A stretch of 64,000 nt of DNA from Centipeda infelix ATCC 43532 (lineage in GTDB: Bacteria > Bacillota > Negativicutes > Selenomonadales > Selenomonadaceae), in the NCBI RefSeq assembly GCF_000234095.1, contig NZ_JH376799.1, positions 153,217 through 217,216 on the forward strand, read 5' to 3'. Below the pieces are notes generated by a model. It saw only the letters and a program-made list of their open reading frames with translations. It ran no database searches and was not told the origin of the DNA. Position numbers and translations under genes: made by a program. Below, piece by piece: positions 36,638 to 48,921 of the stretch (the first letter of the stretch is position 1; each line of letters starts with the position of its first letter).

Positions 36638-37420
36638 TCATCTGAATTTTGGATCAAACGCTAGAATATCCGAAAGGGTGTCGAATTCATAGATAATTCC
36701 CTGTGGATAGCATTTCCGATACAAAATCAATTCATTGAGATGCTGCATATAGACTTGCTCCCAGAGCATTTCACGTACTGCGGCATCTATTTCATACGCG
36801 TGCCGCAACAGCGTACGAAATTTCTCGCTGAATGCACGTGTGAAATACACATGCCCCATCATATACCAGCCGCGCGCGCCGCCAATCTGCACCCCCGTGA
36901 TGCGGTCATCCGCATCCACGGACAGATAGTATTCCTCCGTCGGCTCGTCTCCATAGGTCGCTGCATAATAGGAACGGTAGACATAGGGTGCAAAGACATT
37001 CTTCGTGAAATAATTATCCGCCGAGCAGATATATGTGTTGTCGAGTTCATCCAACACACGATAGAGCGATGATGTGTTGTTATAGCGGTGATAGTCCGGA
37101 TTCTCCACAATGTGGACATGTGGATGCGTCCCAAGATAGGCAAACTGTTCACTTCGATATCCCGTGACAAGGAAGATATCTGCAACGCCCGCCTCAACAA
37201 GCTGCTCAATCTGCCGCTCAACCAGAACCTCACCGCGTATCCGCAGCAGCCCCTTCGGTATTTGCTCCGTGATTGGTCCAAGCCGTGATCCGTAGCCCGC
37301 TGCCATTAGCACAGCATTCTTCACGCGGTAGGGAGTGAGCATATCTCTCGCATGCAATCGCTGTGCTTCATCCTCTGTCTTTTGTGCAGCATAGAGTTGC
37401 AAGAATTCCTCATTCGTCAC
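36638..37420 (-). CDS. LicC-like choline-phosphate cytidylyltransferase
   Basis: 260-residue nucleotidyltransferase (NTP_transferase fold) likely activating phosphocholine, or a related alcohol phosphate, with CTP. The signature LMAAGYGSRLGPITEQIPKG (about 38-57) carries the nucleotide-binding G-x-G-x-R and the catalytic Lys. SADNYFTKNVF is the metal-binding Asp region. About 35 residues precede the catalytic fold. The start overlaps the transporter stop by 4 nt (ATGA). It is last in a licA-licB-licC-like run at the end of the glycan cluster; no licD phosphocholine transferase is recognisable nearby. Confidence 0.82.
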   Translation of the reverse strand: MTNEEFLQLYAAQKTEDEAQRLHARDMLTPYRVKNAVLMAAGYGSRLGPITEQIPKGLLRIRGEVLVERQIEQLVEAGVADIFLVTGYRSEQFAYLGTHPHVHIVENPDYHRYNNTSSLYRVLDELDNTYICSADNYFTKNVFAPYVYRSYYAATYGDEPTEEYYLSVDADDRITGVQIGGARGWYMMGHVYFTRAFSEKFRTLLRHAYEIDAAVREMLWEQVYMQHLNELILYRKCYPQGIIYEFDTLSDILAFDPKFR

Positions 37421-38364
37421 AATGTCGTTTCTTCTTTCTGTGGATAAAGCGAGACCAATAATACACCCGCAAAGACAAGCGCACAGCCGAATACCATCAG
37501 CCTCGACGGTGGATCATTACCAAGCCCCCATTGCAGCAACGCTCCCCATATGATATAGCTCGCATTGGTCGCCATTCCATGCGCACAACCAATCGCACGA
37601 TTAACCGCATACCAGAGGAAGTAAGACGCGCCTGCAGCGACACCTGCAAAAACAAGTGTTCCGAGTGCTAACATTTTATCGGAGAAGGAGAGCCACACAG
37701 AGCTGCCGGACAAGAACACGAATGTCACGACAAGCAGCACCACACCGGAGATACTTTCACGCAGCGTAATGGCAAGCCCCGGTGAAATATCATCCATTCC
37801 CCGTACCGCAAGCACGATTTCACTGCCCCAGCAGAGAGCAGCAAGGAGACTGCAAAGGATCCCCCCAGAAAGCAGCGGTGGAACAGTCTCCGGCTCAGTC
37901 AAACCCGCAAGAACGGCCCCCACCACAGCGAGCAAAATACCAATACACATACCTGTATTCATCCGCTGATGCAGGAAAATACGTGCCAAAACACAGCCAA
38001 CAACGGGATAGAGTGCCGAAAGTGCCAGTGCGTACGTCGGTCCCGCCCACAGAATACCGAGACAATAGGAAAGCTGTCCCAAAGGACCGCCGAGGAACGC
38101 CGCAGCAATCAGAAAAGCACCGGAGCGACTGACAATCACAGTATGGCAAGAGCGAAGGACACCACGTACACCATTGAGTACAAGTAAAAAGACAGCCGCA
38201 CTCACATCGTTGATCGCCGTACAAACGAGTGGGAAAAGAATACCGATGGGCAGAAGTCCCTCCGTCGCCTCATACACACCCGCCGCATACAGATAATTAT
38301 TACAGCCCCATAGGAAGCCACTTGCAACACCGAGCAAAAGCCATAGAGGATAGCGGTTCATCAC
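37417..38364 (-). CDS. DMT/EamA-family transporter, LicB-like
   Basis: 315-residue membrane protein with about ten hydrophobic segments and two internal EamA-type repeats (GVASGFLWGCNNYLYAAGVYEA at the N-terminus). Proteins of this type encoded beside licA and licC are choline permeases (LicB), so choline uptake for surface modification is the likely role (inference from context). Both ends overlap its neighbours by 4 nt, indicating tight coupling. Without the neighbours it would only be called a DMT permease. Confidence 0.78.
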   Translation of the reverse strand: MMNRYPLWLLLGVASGFLWGCNNYLYAAGVYEATEGLLPIGILFPLVCTAINDVSAAVFLLVLNGVRGVLRSCHTVIVSRSGAFLIAAAFLGGPLGQLSYCLGILWAGPTYALALSALYPVVGCVLARIFLHQRMNTGMCIGILLAVVGAVLAGLTEPETVPPLLSGGILCSLLAALCWGSEIVLAVRGMDDISPGLAITLRESISGVVLLVVTFVFLSGSSVWLSFSDKMLALGTLVFAGVAAGASYFLWYAVNRAIGCAHGMATNASYIIWGALLQWGLGNDPPSRLMVFGCALVFAGVLLVSLYPQKEETTL

Positions 38365-39281
38365 ATATCCCCTAACAGATCATGCACCTTTGCCGGATAC
38401 GTCTTTGCGAAGCGCAGCTGATTCTCAGCATACACACCAAAAGATGCGCCAAGAGAGCTTTTATAGGCACACCATAGACTCCACAAAAGTCCGCCCACCG
38501 CCATATAGGCATATACCCTCGCCTTGATTTGCTCGTCGGCCCCCTCGGGAAAGTAACCCGCAAGCAGCTGCGTTGTCTCCGCTTCCGCGTAGTTCGCATA
38601 AATCGCAAACATCGCGACATCAACAAGAGGATCGGAACATGCCGCATACTCCCAGTCAATAAGGTAGGGGGATTCACGCCCCTCAACGAAGAGAAAGTTA
38701 TCAGAAATCGAGTCAATATGGCAGAGTGTATCTCTATTTTCTAAGAACGGCGCAAGAAATGGTCGCAAAGAAAAAACAGCTTCCCTTATACTCATGTATT
38801 CAGGACAGACATTTATCCCTCCATTAAGGACTTCTTCATAATGGATCACAGCCTCAAAAGGGTTAAACGTACTCGCACCACACAGTCTGCGCTCATGAAA
38901 AGAACGCAGCGCTTTCATGCAGGAATGCACCTCATCCATATTCATAGGATCGCAGACATGAGAGTCTTCATAGTAGCGCGAGATCTTATAGCCCGGTTCA
39001 ACGCTGAGCACAACAATATCCTCTGTGATGTCCGTACAGCGAAGCATCTCATAGACAGCCTTCTCATTCTCACGATCGATTAAAAGCTCGGTCCCCTTTC
39101 CGTTGCAGCGAAAGATATATTTCTTCCCCTGCACGTCAAATAGGAAGGAATCATTTGTCATACCTTCCTTGAGGGGCAACAGGGCCCCGGATGCCGCCTT
39201 CTTGCCAAAATACTGCTTAATCGTTCTCCGAATGAATATTTCTTCTGCCGAAATGGGACACGTCTGCCTATCAAGCGCCAT
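38361..39281 (-). CDS. LicA-like choline/ethanolamine kinase
   Basis: About 306 residues with the aminoglycoside-phosphotransferase/choline-kinase fold. LKEGMTNDSFLF is the nucleotide loop, CHIDSISDNFL the Brenner-type catalytic motif (H-x-D-x4-N), and YLIDWEYA the metal-binding motif. The ATG at 39281 (MALDRQTCP) with GGAG upstream is preferred. The longer open frame to 39389 only repeats, out of frame, the 3' end of the glycerophosphotransferase gene, which it would overlap by 118 bp. It likely makes phosphocholine for LicC. Confidence 0.8.
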   Translation of the reverse strand: MALDRQTCPISAEEIFIRRTIKQYFGKKAASGALLPLKEGMTNDSFLFDVQGKKYIFRCNGKGTELLIDRENEKAVYEMLRCTDITEDIVVLSVEPGYKISRYYEDSHVCDPMNMDEVHSCMKALRSFHERRLCGASTFNPFEAVIHYEEVLNGGINVCPEYMSIREAVFSLRPFLAPFLENRDTLCHIDSISDNFLFVEGRESPYLIDWEYAACSDPLVDVAMFAIYANYAEAETTQLLAGYFPEGADEQIKARVYAYMAVGGLLWSLWCAYKSSLGASFGVYAENQLRFAKTYPAKVHDLLGDM

Positions 39282-40911
39282 CAGATCTCGCTCCATTTCC
39301 CCAGCACGCAAGCCCCAACTCCGACCGCTGCTCGGCAAAGACCTCCCGCAGATCTGCATACAGCCCCTCCGGGAAAAGATCCACTTCAAGCGGCACAGGA
39401 AGTGTCAGAGGATCGGCATAGAGCAACATTGCAAGGGTAAGGCAGGAACGATGCTCACGGCAATCAGCAGCAACATACAGTTCCTGCAATTTTGCAAGAA
39501 TCTGCTGTTCTCCCCACACCAGATTTTCATTTCGGACACGCAGCTGCAAGAGAGCCAGATATCCCTCGTACCACTCCTGTTCACAGAAATGGGCAAGCCA
39601 CCCCTCTTGCCATTTCCCGATCACAGGAACAAGTTCTTTCTTTCGCTCAAAAATCCATCGGTCGATTTCGGGTAAATAGGCCTCCGCAGGATGCAGACTA
39701 TCGGCATAGTCCCGCTTGAGCCGCGCGACGATGCGCTGCGCCGCTCCCATATGCTTCCTGCGGAACACAGCAATAATTTCCCGGCGTCGCGCTGCCGCGG
39801 GATCGTCGCCACGCAGCAGATGCTCCAGATGATATTCTGCCTCGTCCCAGTTTCGGGCGACATAGCTGCCGTTGAGCATCTGCCTGTAATCATCCGTCGG
39901 TTCAGAATCATTCGGACAGTAAATCATTGGACGATCGAGCAGGAAGAACGGCATATTGAGTGAAGAAAAATCCGTCAGCAGTATATCCGCCGCACGAAGA
40001 GCCTCCTCAGCAGCAAAACGCCCCTCATCCAATTCAACGCCATATACCGTCAGCTGTTCCTTATAGTCCGCAACCTCCTGTGCCGTCATCTGCCCCTTTT
40101 GGACAAAATTGTCAAACATAAGCGGATGCGGTCGTATTGCAAATTTCAGCTCTTCACTTCCATACTTTTTTGCGAATGCCAGAAATACATCCTTATAGTC
40201 AAAGAAATGACTTCCGCCAATCCACTTCTCCGTATTCCAACGCGGCATCCATAGAACTTTTCGTATGGCACGGTCTTCATGAGATGTATTCAAATACGGT
40301 TCAAAGCCGGGATACCCAAGATCCTCAAAGTGCTGCACACCGGCATTGACCGTCATCGGATAGGCGGATTCCATCATGCTCTTTTCTTCCTCAGAGTCAC
40401 AGAAGAAAAAACTCAGATGTGAGAAAAACTCCGGCATCTCCATCTCTGCATGAATAAAGAACTTCATCCCCTGTGTCCCATATGGGAGGTAACAAAGCTT
40501 TGCAAATTTGGTAAGTTCGCGCGCATGTGTACCGCAGAGTGGACGAAGGGCTTCGTATGGGGTCGGCAAAAAGATATAGTCGGGCGCAAAAATACGCAGA
40601 TCGTAAGCATTGGTAAAGTCATAGACATTGGGATAGTGCTCATGAAAGGACTTCCAATAGTGCATATCATACCGCCCCACCGAATTCTGTGCGGCAACGT
40701 CTGTTGCCTTGTAGGTTGGGACAAGTACGATGACGGTCTCCACCGTCGCATCTGCAGCAAACACATCATAGACAGGCTGCTGTTTATCCCAGATCACCGG
40801 ATCATGCACGAGAAAAAGGACGCGCATCTTGCGATCTGTATGTGCACGGTTATGAATTTCCTGCAAATAGTACGCCGCTGTTTCGCGATTGGCAAATGCA
40901 TTTGCCCTCAT
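39271..40911 (-). CDS. CDP-glycerol glycerophosphotransferase-like protein (TagF/TagB family), copy 1
   Basis: About 546 residues. The C-terminal Glyphos_transf region has [11 protein letters not shown] and [25 protein letters not shown], the family hallmark (D-[YF]-S-S ... RP). The N-terminal part starts [25 protein letters not shown]. It may transfer glycerol-phosphate or another CDP-alcohol moiety to a surface glycan at the cytoplasmic face. It is a paralogue of the gene at 42468-44117; the same opening and C-terminal blocks occur in both. The ATG at 40911 (second of two adjacent) is chosen for ribosome-binding-site spacing and overlaps the GNAT stop. Confidence 0.82.
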   Translation of the reverse strand: MRANAFANRETAAYYLQEIHNRAHTDRKMRVLFLVHDPVIWDKQQPVYDVFAADATVETVIVLVPTYKATDVAAQNSVGRYDMHYWKSFHEHYPNVYDFTNAYDLRIFAPDYIFLPTPYEALRPLCGTHARELTKFAKLCYLPYGTQGMKFFIHAEMEMPEFFSHLSFFFCDSEEEKSMMESAYPMTVNAGVQHFEDLGYPGFEPYLNTSHEDRAIRKVLWMPRWNTEKWIGGSHFFDYKDVFLAFAKKYGSEELKFAIRPHPLMFDNFVQKGQMTAQEVADYKEQLTVYGVELDEGRFAAEEALRAADILLTDFSSLNMPFFLLDRPMIYCPNDSEPTDDYRQMLNGSYVARNWDEAEYHLEHLLRGDDPAAARRREIIAVFRRKHMGAAQRIVARLKRDYADSLHPAEAYLPEIDRWIFERKKELVPVIGKWQEGWLAHFCEQEWYEGYLALLQLRVRNENLVWGEQQILAKLQELYVAADCREHRSCLTLAMLLYADPLTLPVPLEVDLFPEGLYADLREVFAEQRSELGLACWGNGARSDGA

Positions 40912-41525
40912 CATATCCTTCCCTCTCCTGCTTGATTCATCCGTATTTCATCCCGTGACAGACGCTGAGCAATATGCTCCCGTACAGAGAGCCAATCTGC
41001 CTGAGAACGCACATACTCCCCTTGCCGCATGCCGTTCACGATAAGCTCATCTGGGAATTGTACGACGCCATCATTCCGATGAAACCCATATTTCTCATGA
41101 TAACGGATGGAAGCAATGTTATCGTGCACGATATGCGCATAGCAAGTATCTACGTCAAATGCACTGTACATATAGTCCGCAAAAAGGAAACTTGCCTCTG
41201 CAAAGAGCAGGCTTCCCCGATAGTGACGGTCACCGACGAGCAGCCGTCCCGTGATGCAGCGCCGCCGCTCCGAATCATAGTCGGTCCACCCCATTGTGGC
41301 AAATGGCGTGTCCGTTTCTTTGTCCACGACGATGAGAAGCCCCTGCGTTGGATCGGTACAATAATATTCATACCATACACGCTGTTTTTCCAACGTGAGC
41401 AAAAAGGGCTGATTCAGATAGCGGTTATTCTCGGGATCATTGCGCCATGCAATGATGTAGGGAAAATATGCCTCCACAGCCTCCACCAAATATACCGATT
41501 GCCCATCAAGTCGAATCCCCTGCAT
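40911..41525 (-). CDS. GNAT-family N-acetyltransferase
   Basis: About 204 residues, RimJ/RimL-like GNAT fold: WRNDPENNRYLNQPF near the N-terminus, the acetyl-CoA loop around GRLLVGDRHYRGSLLFAEA, and NIASIRYHEKYGFHRNDG as the C-terminal motif. The ATG at 41525 has GGAG 6 nt upstream; a TTG 12 nt further out is less likely. Inside a cluster with fdtA and fdtB it could acetylate the 3-amino-3,6-dideoxy sugar (the FdtC role), although characterised FdtC proteins are, to my knowledge, of a different fold. That role is inference. Confidence 0.75.
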   Translation of the reverse strand: MQGIRLDGQSVYLVEAVEAYFPYIIAWRNDPENNRYLNQPFLLTLEKQRVWYEYYCTDPTQGLLIVVDKETDTPFATMGWTDYDSERRRCITGRLLVGDRHYRGSLLFAEASFLFADYMYSAFDVDTCYAHIVHDNIASIRYHEKYGFHRNDGVVQFPDELIVNGMRQGEYVRSQADWLSVREHIAQRLSRDEIRMNQAGEGRI

Positions 41526-41545
41526 AATACGCTCCAAGCATCTCG

Positions 41546-42481
41546 TTATCTACTGTTACATTCCGTCAATTTCTGCAGTTCATAGGGGTTGACATCCTGC
41601 AAATACGTGTCTGTGGCAATGATCTGATCCACCTCAGCATAATACCTGCGAACGATCTCTGCATAGGGGGAGTTCGTATCACGCCGCCCCTCTATGTGCC
41701 ACTTGCAAAGGGCCCTGAACTCCGTATGCCGCTCCGCCATGATTGCAAGCATCATTTGATTGTCGCGCAAAAGTCGAGTTTTCCACTCTTCGGATGCCAC
41801 ATTTGATATACCATGACTGCTTTCGTACCATACGAAATTATAATCCCAAAAGCCGAGAGATATGTCATCCGCTACCATCAACGCATACGCCGAATCCTCC
41901 ATATACACAACAGATCCGAGAATAAGATCTGTATACGAGACCATACGTGTACGCTCCCCCATAAACGAAGCTCCACAGGCATAATCCTGACACACGAGAT
42001 ATGCCTCTTTGATCGCCGGAAGGTTTCTCTCTCGATATGGCTTCAGCTGAAATGGCTGCATCCGATCATAGATATGGTACTTCCCTTCTGCCCTGCCGTA
42101 AGCGCAGCTGCGCCCAAAGGCAATGTGGTATCCTTCCTGCTCCATAAACTGGAGCATTCCTACAAGCGCCGTATCATTGTATAGGAAATCCCCCGAGGAG
42201 ATCGGCTTAACATATCTTCCACGTGCGATTGCGTACGCGTTCCATACGTTACGAACCGTTCCATGGTTCTCCATGCTGCGTACGATGCAGTAATCGGTGA
42301 TCCCATGCACCGTCATCCATGCCTCGACCATATCCTGCCGAAAATCCGGCGTCCCATCGTCTGCAATGATAATTTCGTAGGAGCATCCCTGTTGACGAAT
42401 GACAGAGGTAAGAGTCATGAACAGCTTCTCATAATCCGGTTGATAGGTGAGGACACAGACCGAAACATCAACCGCTGTCAT
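41546..42481 (-). CDS. family 2 glycosyltransferase
   Basis: About 311 residues, GT-A fold: [20 protein letters not shown], then [10 protein letters not shown] and the acceptor-side [15 protein letters not shown]. It is paralogous to the middle domain of the 953-residue protein at 45978-48839; both have YLVCQDYA, G(D/A)FxxN/S and FAFGRSC/IAFGRSC blocks in the same order. The ATG at 42481 with GGAG 9-10 nt upstream is chosen. The longer frame to 42577 reads through the upstream gene out of phase. It overlaps the stop of the TagF-like copy 2 by 14 nt. Donor sugar unknown. Confidence 0.82.
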
Positions 42482-44117
42482 GTACCGCACACTCCTCCGC
42501 ATAGACATTGACCGTCCCGATTCCGAGCTCTTTGCGCTGCTCAGCAAAGGCCTCCCGCAAATCTGCATACAGTCCATCAGGGAAAAGATCTATTTCAAGA
42601 GGAACAGGCAGTATCAGTGGATCGGCAAAAAGCAGCATCGCAAGGGTAAGACAGGCACGATGCTCCCGCTCCACGGCAGTGGCGTAGAGTTCCTTCAACT
42701 TTACGAGAATCTGCTGCTCGCCCCATACGAAATGATCGCTCCATGGATGCATGGAGAGCATCTCCAGATAAAGAGGGTACCACTCCTGTTCACAGAAATG
42801 CGGCAGGAGATCAGAACTCCTCCCCATGATCGAAACAAGAGTTTTCTTCGCCTCAAAAAGCCGCTGCTCGATCTCGGGCAGACAAGCCGTACGCGGATGA
42901 ACGCTTTCTGCGAAATCTCTTTTGATGCGGTCAGCAATGCGCTGTGCGGCGCCGATATGCTTCGCCCGAAATTCCTCGACGATCCCCCGCCGCTGATACG
43001 CCACCGGATCTTCATAGCGAATCAGCCGCTCCAAATAATGCTCTGCCGCCCCCCATGTCTCAGCAACATAACTGCCCGCAGCCATCTTCTTATAATCATC
43101 CGTCAATTCACTGTCATTCGGACAATAGATGAGCGGTCGGTCCAGCAGGAAAAAGGGCATATTGAGCGATGAGAAGTCCGCCAGCAGGATATCCGCCGAG
43201 GTCAGCGCTTCAAAAACGCTGTATTGTCCCTCATCCAGCACAATTCCATATGCCGCCAGTTGGGCCTTAAAGTCGGCAACCTCCTGCGCCGTCATCTGCC
43301 CACTATGGATGAAATTGTCGAACATAAGCGGGTGCGGACGGATGGCAAACTCCAATGTCTCGCTGCCATATTTCCGTGCAAACGCAAGAAACGCATCCTT
43401 GTAGACTAAAAAATGACTTCCCCCAACATTTGCCGCCGTATTCCAGCGCGGTATCCATAGAACTCGCCGCCGAATGTGTGGCTCACATCGATATTCCAGA
43501 TAGGGCTCGAAGCTCGGATAACCGATATTCTCAAAATGCTGCACGCCGGCTGCGACCGTATCCGGGTAGGCGGCTTCCATGGCGATCTGCTCCTCCTCGG
43601 AATCGCAGAAATGAAATGACACATGGGCAAAGAATGGCGCGAGTGAAGCCTCCACTTGAATAAAAAACTTTGACCCAGGTGTCCCATACGCGATATAGCA
43701 AATCTTTGCAATCTTGGCAAGCTCTGATGTGTGTGTCCCGTGAAGAGGACGCAGTCCATCATACGGTGTCGGCAAAAAGATGTAGTCAGGCTGAAAAACG
43801 TTCAAATCAATAACATTGGTAAAATCGAATACATTAGGATAACGGTCATGAAAGAAGTGCCATGTCTTGTCCACATATCGCCCCGCAGGTTTATGCTCTG
43901 CCGCATCAATTGCATTGTAGCTGGAAAGCAGCACAAGGGTTGTCTCCACCATGTCATCGGCAGCAAACAAATCGTACACATATTCCTGCTTGTCCCAAAG
44001 GGACGGCTCATGTACCAGAAAAAGAACGCGCATCTTGCGATCTGTATGTGCGCGGTTATGGAGTTTCTGTAAATAGTAAGCAGCCAAATCCAAACTGCAA
44101 AAACCCGATTCTTCCAT
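42468..44117 (-). CDS. CDP-glycerol glycerophosphotransferase-like protein (TagF/TagB family), copy 2
   Basis: About 549 residues, paralogue of 39271-40911. Shared features are the opening [45 protein letters not shown] and [25 protein letters not shown]. The 3' ends are alike even at DNA level: the out-of-frame peptide MQICGR[SP]L occurs past both. The ATG at 44117 (MEESGFCSL) has AGAGGA 6 nt upstream. Two divergent polymerase-like copies suggest that one primes and one extends, or that they act on two glycans (inference). Confidence 0.82.
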
Positions 44118-44150
44118 AGCCCGTCCTCTCAATCAGTCACCGTTTTTATA

Positions 44151-44224: not shown

Positions 44225-45364
44225 TTATCTCTTAGTCGTTCCATCACAGCATGACGTACTGTACACTTCCCTCGAGTACGCGTTGACCGTATCAATCACA
44301 TAGTCAATCTCATCCGCCCGCATCCCATTGAATATCGGCAGGCTCAGCACCTCGTCCGCGTACTGCTCGGCGACGGGGAAACTGCCGTGTCCATAGCCGA
44401 GCTGCGCATAGCACTCTGCCAGATGCGGCGGGATCGGATAGTGAATAACCGTCTCGATGCCGTGGTCCTTGAGATATGCCTTAAAATGATCGCGCGTTGT
44501 CGTCCGCACAACGAACTGATGATAGACATGTTCCGCCCCATCACGCAGCTGCGGCAGGATGATATACTCGTTATGAATCCCCGCAAGGTATTTCGCTGCA
44601 ATCTCTCTGCGCTCTGCGGTCAGCTCTGACAAGTATCCGAGTTTGACACGCAGCAATGCCGCCTGAATCTCATCCAGACGGGAGTTGATCCCGCATAGTT
44701 CGTTATGATACTTCTCCTTGCTCCCGTAGTTGCGAAGCATCCGGATACGCTCAGCAAGTCCCGCATCATCCGTCACAATCGCCCCCGCATCACCAAATGC
44801 GCCGAGATTTTTCGTCGGGTAGAAGCTGAAGCAACCAACATCCCCGAAACGTCCTGTCATCGTCGTACCGAAGTGTGCGCCGTGCGACTGGGCGCAGTCC
44901 TCAACGACGGCAAGGTGGTGACGCGCCGCAATCTCCCCCATGCGCCCCATATCAGCCGCCTGCCCGTAGAGATGAACGGGCATGATGGCACGCGTACGCT
45001 CCGTAATCACGGATTCGAGTTTCGATGTGTCCAGATTGTAGTATCCGTCAGGTTCGACGAATATGGGAGTTGCTCCGTTTGCCGTGACCGCGAGCACGGT
45101 TGCAATATAGGTGTTCGCCGGCACAATGACCTCATCGCCCGCACCAATGCCGAGCGCGGCGACTGAGAGCGTCAGGGCGTCAAGTCCCGAGTTCAGCCCG
45201 ACCGCATATTTCGCGCCCGTGTATGCTGCAAACTCCTCCTCGAATGCCTCGAGTTCCGGTCCCATGATGTACCACCCCGAACGCAGGGCACGCAGTGCCG
45301 CCGCCTCATACGCTGCGGCGTGGAGCTCATACTGCCGCCCGAGTACAGCAAGATCAATCTTCAT
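44225..45364 (-). CDS. DegT/DnrJ/EryC1-type sugar aminotransferase, FdtB-like
   Basis: 379-residue PLP aminotransferase acting on a nucleotide 3-keto-6-deoxyhexose. [24 protein letters not shown] and [12 protein letters not shown] are family blocks, and the PLP Lys is in [12 protein letters not shown]. It starts within the last 4 nt of the fdtA-like gene, so the pair is coupled as in Aneurinibacillus fdtA/fdtB, which make dTDP-3-amino-3,6-dideoxygalactose. QdtB-type (glucose configuration) is an equal alternative. The rml genes that would supply the dTDP sugar are not in the window. Confidence 0.85.
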
Positions 45365-45771
45365 GCCCGTTCCTCCCCATGCACCATACGCAGGAATTCA
45401 TCATAGTCGCGAATATAGTCTGCCTCATCGTAGACCTCGGACGCGAGCACCATGAGCACGGCATCCTCGGAGAAGTCGTACATCTCTCGCCACATCGCAT
45501 TCGAAAGGTAAAGACCCTCATACGGTTTTTCGAGCGGAACGACCTTCTTCTCGTGTCCATTGTCGAGCCGCACCTTGCAGCTCCCGTGAATACAGATCAG
45601 GATCTGCTCCAGTGTCCGATGTGCGTGATGCCCGCGCACCACCCCCGACACGGTATCATACATATAGTAGACGCGCTTGATACGAAACGGGATATCGTTG
45701 AACTCCTCGAGCGCGACAAGCATCCCGCGCTCATCGCCATGCGGCTGAAACATATATTTTACGATCTGCAT
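45361..45771 (-). CDS. sugar 3,4-ketoisomerase, FdtA/QdtA (WxcM-like cupin)
   Basis: 136-residue single cupin that moves the keto group of dTDP-4-keto-6-deoxyglucose from C4 to C3. It has the conserved [11 protein letters not shown] start, [21 protein letters not shown] (His-rich active-site strand), and [18 protein letters not shown]. Length and motifs match FdtA/QdtA; which epimer it makes cannot be told by eye. It is followed by its aminotransferase partner, and a diverged MITE lies upstream. Confidence 0.87.
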
Positions 45772-45977: not shown

Positions 45978-48839
45978 CTACTCGGAATCCGCCTCATCCC
46001 ACTTTGCCTGTTCCCAGAGCTGCGCATACAGAACCTCCTGAACCCGCAGATCGACGTCGAATACCTGGATGGGATAGTCCGAGCGATTCTCGCGCAGGAT
46101 CTTCGCCAAATTCTCCGCAAATTCGTCCTCTGTAATAACGAGTTTTTTTGCACGAAATACGCTCTCTTTCATTTGACGGTAGGTCGGATCTTCGATAAAG
46201 TTCCGCAGTTCCGCAAGAAACTCCTCCATATCCGTATACTCGATGCCCAGCTCTTCCACAGGCAGAAGTACCGAGGGAGCACCCGCCCCGTACGGGAGAC
46301 AGAGGAAGTTGAACGGCGGTCTGCCCGCCAAGGCGGCATACTGTGTCATTAATCCACCGATTTGCGGACAGGTATTGAGATACATATCCACATTCTGCAT
46401 GATTTGGAACAGGTCTTCACACTCTCCCGTAAGAAAGACCCGTCCCACATATTTTTGCTCCAAGGCTCGCAGATCCAAAAACTGATTCTGCGGCCCCGTT
46501 CCCGCATACCAGAATTTCACCTGAGGGAAGTTCGCAAGACAGAAATCAACAATCTGATAGTATGTTTTTATTCGGTCAAGCGTTTTATAAACAGCCCCAC
46601 CCGAGAATATGATAAAGTCCCCAGTCGCCTTTTCAAACGGGAACCCTTGAAACGGAAGCGTCCTATCGATACAAGGATAGTAGAGCTGTTTCAATATTTT
46701 CTGTGGTGCGATCTTTCGATACTGCCGTGAGACATTTGCTCCGAAATCGCGGAACTCAAGACAATAGTCAAACGCATTCACACCAAGCCAGAAGGCATGA
46801 TCCGTCAGATTGATCTGATATCGCTTCATGCGTCCCGCAAAGCGCATGAATGTCAGAATCCCCGCAATATCCCACGGTGTCGTATATAAAAATCCAATGT
46901 CGGGTCGGATCTCATCCATGAGACTGCACAGAAAATGTGTACGCGACCATGCGCCCGTCTTCGCCGCATCCGGCAAGAAGCAAATGCAGCCGCCGCATTC
47001 ATTCAATATCGCTTCCAGTCTCGGAATATTTCCCCGTGCAGACTCCGGTGCGATATAGTAGAGATCAACATCCATGCGGCTGAGTGCGCGGAGATAGATG
47101 AAGGCAAGTCCGCGTATGTCGTATCCGAATGCATCGTAGAATACAATGCGCTGTCGCTCATGGGGTTCCTGCACAGAAGACGGCTCCGGCAGCAGCTTTG
47201 ACAGAGTGGAAAGATATTCTTCGAGGACTTCATCGGTATAGGTCTGATTGCAGTGATAGAGGATGGTCGCTAGATATTCCATCGACCTCATGACGTTCTC
47301 ATAGGCTTCACTGCGAAGCTGTTGCCCGACGACCTCACGCAGCTGCGACACTTTTACAAAAAAATTATTCAGTTTTCGCTGGGTCTCCTCCGCCAATATA
47401 ACGGGGCGTTCAAATGCCTGTGCATCGGAGTGTCGCACAGAATTGCCTTCTGCGGCATTCTCATTCAATGCAAATAAAACTTCCCCATGAACGAGTTTTT
47501 TCAGCTCGTTCGGATCGACACTTTGCAGATAGGACGTTGTTTCCCGTACCCGTCTCATTTCAGCATAGTACGCTTCCATGATCTTCATGTATGGCACATC
47601 CGACGGCTTTCGTCCACCGACATGCCATGTGCACAATTCCCGCAGTTCCGGATGCCGCTGCGCGATCATCATGAGGACAGTACAGTGATCCCGTCCCAGA
47701 CGCTCGATCCACTCCTGTGACGGACCGCCGGAAATCCCGGTCTCACACTCATACCAGATAAAATTATGATCCCAGAATCCGAGTGGAATATCATCTGCGA
47801 CCATCATAATATGAACACCGTCTTCCATATAGGTCACATGACCGACGATATCCCTTGTATAGGAGATCATCAATTCGCGGTCAACAAGAAAGGCCGCACC
47901 AACCGCATAATCCTGACAGACGAGATACGCCTCCTTGATCGCAGAAACAGCGCCTTCTCGATATGGACGCAAATAATGGGGGTTCATACGATCCACAATA
48001 ATGTATTGATTTTTTTCCTTACGATAGTTACAAGAACGCCCGAATGCAAATTGATACCCGTTCTGCTTCATGAACTGCATCATATCTGCTAAAGCGTGAT
48101 TACTGTAAAAGAAATCGCCCGGAGATAGGTTCTTAATATAGTGTCCACAGGCGTGAATATACATATTCATATAGTTCAGGACTGTACCCCGATTCTCGGC
48201 ACTATGCAAAATCGTATAGTCCTTGAACCGATGCTGCAAAAGCCACAGTTCCACACGCTTCACATCAAAATGCTCTGAACCGTCATCCCCCACCAGAATC
48301 TCGAAGGAACATCCCCGCTGCTGAACAATCGAAGTAAGCGTCGCAAAAAGCATTTCATCGTCAGAATGATATGTCGCAACACATATGCTGACATCACAGG
48401 TCTTTTGATACGGCATCCAGCCGGCGGCATGCACAACCGATGCGCCCATCCCGACGGCAATACGGGTGCAGTGCGAAGAAAGCTCGTCCGCTGTCGCGAT
48501 CAGGCAGTCCTCCCGCCGCAGTGCCGCATAAAAAAAAGCATCTGAATATAGATGTGCAAGCACAAGTGGAGCATCTTCGCCGAGTGCCGCAAGGAGTTCG
48601 AGCATCTCGCCCAGCTCTGCTGAGGCATCGGCCTCCGGCAGCATCAGAATAAGCGCCGCTTGATTTTCGGCGGAGTAAGCGCGGAGGTACGAACGGAAGA
48701 CACTGCACCACAAGCCCTCATCCGAGGCAAAATCGGGCACAAAATAATAAAGACGGCACCCCTGTGCTCTAAGTTCTGCAATCCGACGAACGGCTTCTTC
48801 TGTCTGTGAACCACTGTGTGCGGCTTTTTGTTCCCTCAT
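45978..48839 (-). CDS. large multidomain glycosyltransferase (GT2 plus GT-B)
   Basis: About 953 residues in three parts. Residues 1 to about 145 form an unassigned alpha/beta region (CRLYYFVPDF ... ASVVHAAGW). Residues about 148-450 are a family 2 GT-A domain ([42 protein letters not shown]), paralogous to the gene at 41546. Residues about 560-930 are a GT-B-like domain (IVFYDAFGYDIRGLAFIYL, DFIIFSGGAVYKTLDRI, KFWYAGTGPQNQ). Two transferases in one chain suggest two successive sugar additions. The ATG at 48839 is preferred over a TTG 24 nt upstream. It is the first gene of the minus-strand cluster. Confidence 0.82.
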   Translation of the reverse strand: MREQKAAHSGSQTEEAVRRIAELRAQGCRLYYFVPDFASDEGLWCSVFRSYLRAYSAENQAALILMLPEADASAELGEMLELLAALGEDAPLVLAHLYSDAFFYAALRREDCLIATADELSSHCTRIAVGMGASVVHAAGWMPYQKTCDVSICVATYHSDDEMLFATLTSIVQQRGCSFEILVGDDGSEHFDVKRVELWLLQHRFKDYTILHSAENRGTVLNYMNMYIHACGHYIKNLSPGDFFYSNHALADMMQFMKQNGYQFAFGRSCNYRKEKNQYIIVDRMNPHYLRPYREGAVSAIKEAYLVCQDYAVGAAFLVDRELMISYTRDIVGHVTYMEDGVHIMMVADDIPLGFWDHNFIWYECETGISGGPSQEWIERLGRDHCTVLMMIAQRHPELRELCTWHVGGRKPSDVPYMKIMEAYYAEMRRVRETTSYLQSVDPNELKKLVHGEVLFALNENAAEGNSVRHSDAQAFERPVILAEETQRKLNNFFVKVSQLREVVGQQLRSEAYENVMRSMEYLATILYHCNQTYTDEVLEEYLSTLSKLLPEPSSVQEPHERQRIVFYDAFGYDIRGLAFIYLRALSRMDVDLYYIAPESARGNIPRLEAILNECGGCICFLPDAAKTGAWSRTHFLCSLMDEIRPDIGFLYTTPWDIAGILTFMRFAGRMKRYQINLTDHAFWLGVNAFDYCLEFRDFGANVSRQYRKIAPQKILKQLYYPCIDRTLPFQGFPFEKATGDFIIFSGGAVYKTLDRIKTYYQIVDFCLANFPQVKFWYAGTGPQNQFLDLRALEQKYVGRVFLTGECEDLFQIMQNVDMYLNTCPQIGGLMTQYAALAGRPPFNFLCLPYGAGAPSVLLPVEELGIEYTDMEEFLAELRNFIEDPTYRQMKESVFRAKKLVITEDEFAENLAKILRENRSDYPIQVFDVDLRVQEVLYAQLWEQAKWDEADSE

Positions 48840-48921
48840 ACTCCGCCCTTTCTCCGCATACAAACGCCCATATACTTATATCGAAAGAATCTGCTTGTTT
48901 GCTAAAGCATTCCTTGTTCCG

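Follow-up and report, generated by a model that had tools for sequence, protein, structure and literature searches.

LicABC-like choline genes beside two TagF-like genes in Centipeda infelix, and a possible LicD-independent route to surface phosphocholine

We analysed a stretch of 64,000 nucleotides from the genome of Centipeda infelix ATCC 43532 (hereafter the window; contig NZ_JH376799.1, here C3, positions 153217-217216), which carries a ten-gene operon transcribed on the minus strand from 48863 to 36638. The genome assembly comprises 2.41 Mb in 29 contigs and is 99.96% complete. In transcriptional order the operon encodes a protein with GT2 and GT4-type glycosyltransferase domains, FdtA, a QdtB-like aminotransferase, a first TagF-like protein (TagF-like A), a GT2 glycosyltransferase, an acetyltransferase, a second TagF-like protein (TagF-like B), LicA, LicB and LicC. 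The GT2 and acetyltransferase genes separate the two TagF-like genes, and 4-bp overlaps join the acetyltransferase gene to TagF-like B, licA to licB, and licB to licC. The 3' end of the TagF-like B gene falls within the licA open reading frame (ORF) as listed, and the true start of licA is probably downstream of the start of that ORF. The island has a guanine-plus-cytosine content of 48-54%, against mostly 54-62% in its flanks (1-kb steps). A scan for promoter-like sites (23 against a shuffle mean of 15.0) and terminator-like sites (14 against 10.7) was uninformative. The original prediction, that LicABC-like genes lie beside two TagF-like genes without a licD gene, is confirmed at these positions and on this strand.

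The Lic proteins have close counterparts of established structure. LicC is matched best by LicC of Streptococcus pneumoniae and LicA by the pneumococcal choline kinase, and the sole solved structure matching LicB at E 0.01 is that of a LicB permease (Table 1). In the pneumococcal LicA kinase, choline is held by Tyr197, Trp251, Trp254, Tyr268, Asp176 and Thr29 (PMC4364537). This choline box is intact in the window LicA, where Y248, W303, W306 and Y320, together with T78, D226, N231 and D245, are conserved in 10 of 10 aligned LicA sequences. Because all three proteins match solved pneumococcal proteins and the LicA box is intact, we read the trio as a supply of activated choline, and choline is, judged from these sequences, the likely substrate.

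LicD (PF04991), which transfers the phosphocholine in known systems, gave no match and no candidate in a genome-wide search, and the control search was positive in two of 14 genomes; what the original prediction had reported for the stretch now holds for the whole genome. Since LicD is missing, this is not a complete Lic-1 system, and TagF-like B becomes the candidate stand-in. The reading that we favour, giving it a little less than an even chance, is that TagF-like B transfers phosphocholine from cytidine diphosphate (CDP)-choline to a glycan in place of LicD. No cholinephosphotransferase was seen in the genome, and the single PF01066 match is PssA-like by its position beside psd, so that a role of LicABC in making phosphatidylcholine is unlikely. 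A tagD gene, the other candidate for the search, is absent among the four above-cut-off PF01467 matches (named by eye as CoaD, NadD, an HldE-type protein and a phosphoenolpyruvate (PEP) mutase-cytidylyltransferase fusion), a fifth match below the cut-off having been left unread; TagD was dropped as this genome's source of CDP-glycerol on the strength of those four. Of the four PF04464 proteins of the genome, two are TagF-like A and B; the other two, of the canonical kind, are encoded on contig C4.

The two TagF-like proteins both exceed the curated PF04464 cut-off of 22.1 bits, and A groups in the tree as the sister of B (support 89/85). In B only residues 165-352 can be aligned by profile to the canonical members tested (profile-profile probability 97%, E 2e-11), and within this region the R-x-H and D...S donor-site motifs (R261, H263, D315 and S318) are invariant in 25 of 25 sequences. 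This alignment is one point in favour of A and B as TagF-like proteins that would use a CDP-alcohol. The WHG motif, which carries the catalytic His444 of canonical TagF, is absent from both A and B; with this absence, and with an alignment confined to residues 165-352 of B, the label "polymerases" in the original prediction is unsupported; its overall interpretation holds in part, the finding of LicABC without LicD standing genome-wide. All 25 sequences have Tyr145, which lies in a YG motif. Tyr is also described at the His444 position of Cps7A, which belongs to the PF04464 family and is active as a glycerol-3-phosphate transferase (PMC11666461), and we infer that Tyr145 is the equivalent of His444, the profile alignment meant to place the one on the other not reaching that region. 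A model of TagF-like B built with 25 family members (predicted local distance difference test score 90.7, predicted template modelling score 0.89) shows a GT-B protein extended by helices at its C terminus, and matches the fold of TagF 3l7m (Z 21.7, root-mean-square deviation (rmsd) 4.4, 321 residues aligned), with further matches to TarL (Z 20.0) and Bcs3 (Z 18.7). A sequence search of TagF-like A alone against solved structures found nothing, and profile A3 gave a weak TarL match only (E 0.019).

Table 1. Genes of the operon, with positions in the window and principal matches
Feature	Position	Strand	Evidence
LicC-like CTP (cytidine triphosphate):phosphocholine cytidylyltransferase	36638..37420	-	S. 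pneumoniae LicC 1jyk, E 3.7e-38; PF12804
LicB-like choline permease (EamA/DMT)	37417..38364	-	LicB 7b0k, E 3.3e-18; PF00892
LicA-like choline kinase	ORF 38361..39389, start probably 39281-39296	-	pneumococcal choline kinase 4r77, E 8e-35
TagF-like B (PF04464, GT-B fold), proposed phosphocholine transferase	39271..40914	-	PF04464, 43.7 bits
GNAT acetyltransferase, PseH-like	40911..41537	-	PF13302, E 5.5e-12; PseH match below cut-off
GT2 glycosyltransferase	41546..42577	-	PF00535, E 5.1e-14
TagF-like A	42468..44132 (ATG at 44117)	-	PF04464, 27.9 bits; paralogue of B, 64% identity
DegT-type sugar aminotransferase, QdtB-like	44225..45364	-	QdtB 3frk, E 1e-118
FdtA/QdtA-type dTDP-6-deoxyhexulose 3,4-ketoisomerase	45361..45771	-	2pa7, E 8.3e-42; PF05523, E 5.6e-51
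961-aa protein, GT2 and weak GT4-type domains	45978..48863	-	PF00535, E 7.1e-9; PF13692 below its cut-off

The occurrence of LicC, LicD and TagF-like proteins was compared across 14 genomes of the genus. LicC orthologues (at least 65% identity) occur in seven of the 14 genomes (G000, G026, G027, G029, G031, G032 and G033), and LicD in two (G028 and G030), both lacking a LicC orthologue. PF04464 proteins are present in six of the seven LicC-orthologue genomes against two of the seven others, and the close TagF-B type (E <1e-100) in five of the seven against none. In an order-wide survey of 189 genomes (thresholds E 1e-20 for LicC and E 1e-10 for TagF-B), 45 had LicC-type matches, 82 LicD and 30 TagF-B matches. 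Of the 45 LicC-positive genomes we read the loci of 20, the window's own and the 19 best by E-value, together with two extra loci, in G001 (chosen for its TagF-like gene) and G139 (chosen for its PntC-like gene and uncounted); 23 LicC genomes, among them G170, G156, G184 and G180, fall outside the locus sample. A close TagF-like gene lies directly upstream of licA in five of the 20 (G000, G029, G031, G032 and G033), all LicD-free, and in the latter four every PF04464 protein is of the TagF-like type. Organisms with a TagF-like gene beside LicABC include Selenomonas noxia ATCC 43541 (Centipeda noxia in the NCBI taxonomy), Selenomonas sp. FOBRC6, sp. oral taxon 892 F0426 and sp. F0473. The LicA and LicB alignments in G032 are both split in two.

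The remaining loci are varied. Five of the 20 have LicD in the cluster (G009, G144, G150, G167 and G175) and five only sulfatase-like genes (G014, G015, G149, G182 and G183); in two (G172 and G176) a TagF-like gene lies upstream with a split TagD-type gene intervening, and one each has a divergent TagF-like gene (G027), a mixed phosphonate cluster (G177) or none of these (G026). The TagD-type gene (L100 11304-11790, L099 701-1165) is in two reading frames in both G172 and G176 and matches TIGR01518 at E 4e-29, below the equivalog cut-off; the TagF-like gene of G176 is truncated by the contig end. The LicD gene beside LicC in G144 (L093 9182-10060) is broken by one stop codon, and another LicD is present in that genome. 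In G026 (L087 9736-12985) LicABC lies directly beside BioY and the glycan genes of the window are missing at that site. This has the appearance of a glycan locus of variable content, of which LicABC is the fixed edge. In a phylum-wide search at E 1e-15, which scored no more than three candidates in each genome, the TagF-like family was found in at least two of 398 genomes (the window's own and G032). In the tree, the TagF-like copies linked to LicABC do not form one clade; there are five label changes, four of them forced by starred branches, which may be gains or losses, with G172 and L130 on long branches and a label, "next to LicABC", that takes in G027 and TagF-like A of the window and leaves out the second copy of G031.

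Information on the donor comes from the cytidylyltransferases that adjoin these genes. There is no TagD-, IspD- or PntC-like gene in the window operon or in the lic loci of G029, G031, G032 and G033 as fetched, so LicC is the sole cytidylyltransferase seen at the Centipeda TagF-like/lic loci. Relatives of the family have other neighbours: a TagD-type match lies beside the TagF-like copy of G095 (in group g10) and beside the divergent copy of G150, and IspD-like genes lie beside the TagF-like genes of the rumen Clostridia loci L129, which also has a zinc alcohol dehydrogenase and a ribulose-phosphate epimerase, and L130, which also has a weak kinase-like protein and an HAD-family protein. In the fetched stretches of L131 and 15 of the 16 g10 loci there is no cytidylyltransferase match of these kinds. 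The TagD-type and nucleotidyltransferase neighbours strengthen the view of the TagF-like family as CDP-alcohol users, and this branch is probably a family of cytidine-activated-alcohol transferases in which the donor follows the neighbour. We hold more tentatively the wider proposal that the tyrosine-motif branch takes whichever donor its neighbours make, namely CDP-choline in oral Selenomonas and Centipeda, CDP-glycerol or CDP-ribitol elsewhere, a CDP-methylated compound in Mitsuokella and perhaps cytidine monophosphate (CMP)-nonulosonate in G027 and G036, with LicD-independent phosphocholine in Centipeda. As to the earlier suggestion that the TagF-like proteins use CDP-choline or a CDP-alcohol, the neighbourhoods fit a CDP-alcohol user, and for choline itself the sequences point both ways, the LicC pocket being changed and the LicA box intact.

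In Mitsuokella sp. oral taxon 131 (L106 5419-12244) the order is FdtA, nucleotidyltransferase, methyltransferase (by eye), TagF-like, LicA, LicC, LicB and a LicD-like stretch; the TagF-like protein is fused to an acetyltransferase-like part, and the LicD-like stretch of ~70 codons is the only trace of LicD in the genome. A divergent PF04464 subfamily (L086 12503-14185 and L120 8478-10169, the latter beside NeuB and a CMP-transferase) may, to judge by gene content, move CMP-nonulosonate instead of an alcohol phosphate; the nearest relative of the G027 copy, in G036, has NeuB and a CMP-transferase as neighbours and no LicABC, and in view of such NeuB-linked relatives the G027 copy was counted apart. 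Two apparent exchanges of LicD for a TagF-like gene were considered and withdrawn. Over LicA-LicC-LicB, and nowhere beyond it, the DNA of G175 is 77-78% identical to that of G172 and G176, LicD following this block in G175 and TagF-like preceding it in G172 and G176, and their LicC proteins form one clade (98/100); the swap was withdrawn in view of the TagD-type gene and the LicD elsewhere in G172 and G176. The Mitsuokella LicD remnant was withdrawn as a swap in view of the genes that precede TagF-like, and need not mean replacement, because the TagF-like gene there has its own nucleotidyltransferase and methyltransferase. Withdrawing the two cases makes the favoured reading slightly less likely.

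Under the favoured reading, a plausible scheme has the operon making a surface glycan and decorating it. To judge by their families, FdtA, the acetyltransferase and the QdtB-like aminotransferase would make deoxythymidine diphosphate (dTDP)-3-acetamido-3,6-dideoxyhexose, with the GNAT enzyme probably N-acetylating the amino sugar; RmlB for the dTDP-sugar is encoded on contig C1. The GT2 and GT4-type enzymes would then add 3-acetamido-3,6-dideoxyhexose to the glycan on the cytoplasmic side. By family assignment LicB would import choline, LicA would phosphorylate it and LicC would convert the product to CDP-choline, from which TagF-like B would move phosphocholine to the glycan in the cytoplasm, most likely to the amino sugar and in a single step that forms no polymer; TagF-like A would probably do likewise at another site. 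What the analysis shows directly is the gene content, the protein families, the lack of LicD and the pattern of neighbours; the donor, acceptor and product of the scheme are inferences. Flagellin was considered as a linked acceptor and set aside, its genes (C3:364596, 533629 and 539474) being outside the window with no linkage to the operon, and flagellin could still be the acceptor.

Parts of this scheme have counterparts in known systems. The Lic-1 system of Haemophilus and Streptococcus (LicA-LicB-LicC-LicD) shares the LicA, LicB and LicC homologues, but has LicD where the window has a PF04464 protein as the proposed substitute. In Clostridium difficile CD0240-CD0244, CD0242 is LicC-like and CD0244 TagF-like, and loss of CD0244 is reported to leave bare N-acetylglucosamine (GlcNAc) on flagellin (PMC10714395); in Pseudomonas aeruginosa, PA1091 is described as combining a glycosyltransferase and a CD0244-type domain in one gene and acting on a deoxyhexose (PMC11833859). 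The donor is proposed in these reports to be CDP-(N-methyl)threonine, CDP-threonine or methylated forms (PMC10714395, PMC11833859). Both CD0240-CD0244 and PA1088-PA1091 resemble the window in pairing LicC-like and TagF-like proteins with a glycosyltransferase and placing an alcohol phosphate on a sugar, but they lack LicA and LicB and are linked to flagellin, whereas the flagellin genes of C. infelix lie elsewhere. The Mitsuokella locus resembles CD0242-CD0244 in its nucleotidyltransferase, methyltransferase and TagF-like genes. TagF/TarL, Bcs3, CgoT and Cps7A share with A and B the PF04464 signature and GT-B fold; their known donors are CDP-glycerol or CDP-ribitol, and B aligns by profile with the canonical members tested at residues 165-352 only. 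PntC-type tailoring with CMP-aminoethylphosphonate also shows a LicC-like cytidylyltransferase feeding surface tailoring (PMC6697681), with a phosphonate and not phosphocholine; a PntC-like gene and a PEP mutase are present in C. infelix itself at the separate locus L012. This locus (L012 1100-11672, about 420983-437677 of contig C2) encodes the PEP mutase-cytidylyltransferase fusion, a class V aminotransferase, the PntC-like protein and six proteins of ~700 aa with PF00884 domains, which are candidates for CMP-phosphonate transferases.

Several observations weigh against a phosphocholine transferase role for TagF-like B. Pairing with LicABC alone is seen in one clade only (Centipeda), and in group g10, where 16 loci have TagF-like homologues, no LicABC match occurs in those loci. 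In G172 and G176, which have LicD elsewhere, TagF-like is separated from licA by a TagD-type gene, the nucleotidyltransferase and methyltransferase genes of Mitsuokella lie just upstream of TagF-like, and the gene upstream of licA in G027 is a divergent TagF-like copy. In the C. difficile precedent, an earlier study of the CD0244 mutant reports only partial loss, with a mixture of forms (PMC4441256), and the activity of the enzyme is itself proposed. To the same side belong the sulfatase-like proteins found beside LicC or LicA in nine of the 20 loci, which would fit attachment of phosphocholine by ~700-aa proteins of the sulfatase/nucleotide-pyrophosphatase superfamily encoded elsewhere in the genome, A and B doing other work. 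In five of the nine neither LicD nor a TagF-like gene lies in the fetched stretch (LicB in one of the five), and three of these sulfatase-only genomes (G014, G149 and G182) have no LicD; five tested proteins match PF00884 and PF01663, one of them also phosphonate monoester hydrolase and, weakly, choline-sulfatases. G026 is a further case, with an intact-looking LicABC and PF00884 proteins and neither a PF04464 match nor LicD; there LicABC is either a relic or makes CDP-choline for another enzyme. However, six of the eight PF00884 matches of C. infelix stand in one run on C2, near the PEP mutase, aminotransferase and PntC-like genes and far from LicABC, and all 14 genus genomes, those with LicABC and those lacking it alike, have PF00884 proteins (5 to 10 each). 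A role with aminoethylphosphonate, or some other role, is the better fit to this, and we consider attachment by such proteins unlikely.

Also weighing against the favoured role, the modelled fold of B is closest to a UDP (uridine diphosphate)-GlcNAc 2-epimerase (Z 22.8, rmsd 3.2, 314 residues aligned), above TagF, and matches glycosyltransferases too; on the model, the comparison leaves the function undecided, with the epimerase slightly ahead of TagF. FdtA accompanies TagF-like genes in seven of nine loci compared, including the LicABC-free L129-L131, as against LicA in five of nine, and a sugar-transferase role would predict the same steadier companionship. A and B could then be GT-B glycosyltransferases acting on dTDP-3-amino-3,6-dideoxyhexose or another nucleotide sugar, the LicABC product going to an unrecognised enzyme. 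We find this somewhat less probable again, as both proteins pass the PF04464 cut-off, the donor-side stretch aligns with canonical members, several kinds of cytidylyltransferase adjoin TagF-like relatives and the operon already has GT2 and GT4-type domains. Less credible still is that A and B are ordinary polyol-phosphate transferases fed with CDP-glycerol or CDP-ribitol, for example from contig C4, even though TagF-like relatives in G172, G176 and G095 adjoin TagD-type genes. The C4 polymer locus (L005 9586-19741, L006 449-1273) holds the two canonical PF04464 genes with genes for IspD-like, glycerol-1-phosphate-dehydrogenase-like and HAD phosphatase proteins (the last three named by eye), and from these sequences would be a CDP-polyol-type glycan locus in a diderm Negativicute. 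Four relatives with TagF-like genes and LicABC do without canonical PF04464 proteins, no TagD-type match is found in the window or in their lic loci, and the operon has LicABC and no polyol genes.

The module might finally work as proposed with another amine as the alcohol, such as ethanolamine or a partly methylated amine. The pocket of LicC includes Asp105 and Asp192 (PMC6697681). Ser and Glu align with these residues in the window LicC, a further point against choline, and in LicA the Glu213 position is Tyr in 10 of 10 sequences and the Val178 position Ile or Val. At the tryptophan and tyrosine positions of the LicC choline box, the window protein has Tyr and Leu. Yet the LicA aromatic box is fully conserved and LicB matches a choline transporter, and similarly altered LicC residues are found in G144 and G150, both LicD-bearing, so that the pocket changes do not track the type of transferase; LicC of Mitsuokella and of g23 is closer to the pneumococcal enzyme at these positions. 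Of the alternatives, this one appears to us to have the smallest chance.

In a published survey of phosphocholine genes (PMC10434233), LicD and PptA serve as the transferases and Selenomonas goes unmentioned in the main text. We recognised no report of a PF04464 phosphocholine transferase in the open-licence literature, judged by titles, abstracts and passages. The supply of CDP-choline is known and so is the enzyme fold; their combination is new and unproven. Bacterial surface phosphocholine contributes to host mimicry, and if the favoured reading is true, screens for LicD and PptA miss phosphocholine producers in the human mouth, among oral Selenomonas and Centipeda, and the donor of a PF04464 protein would be predictable from the adjoining cytidylyltransferase.

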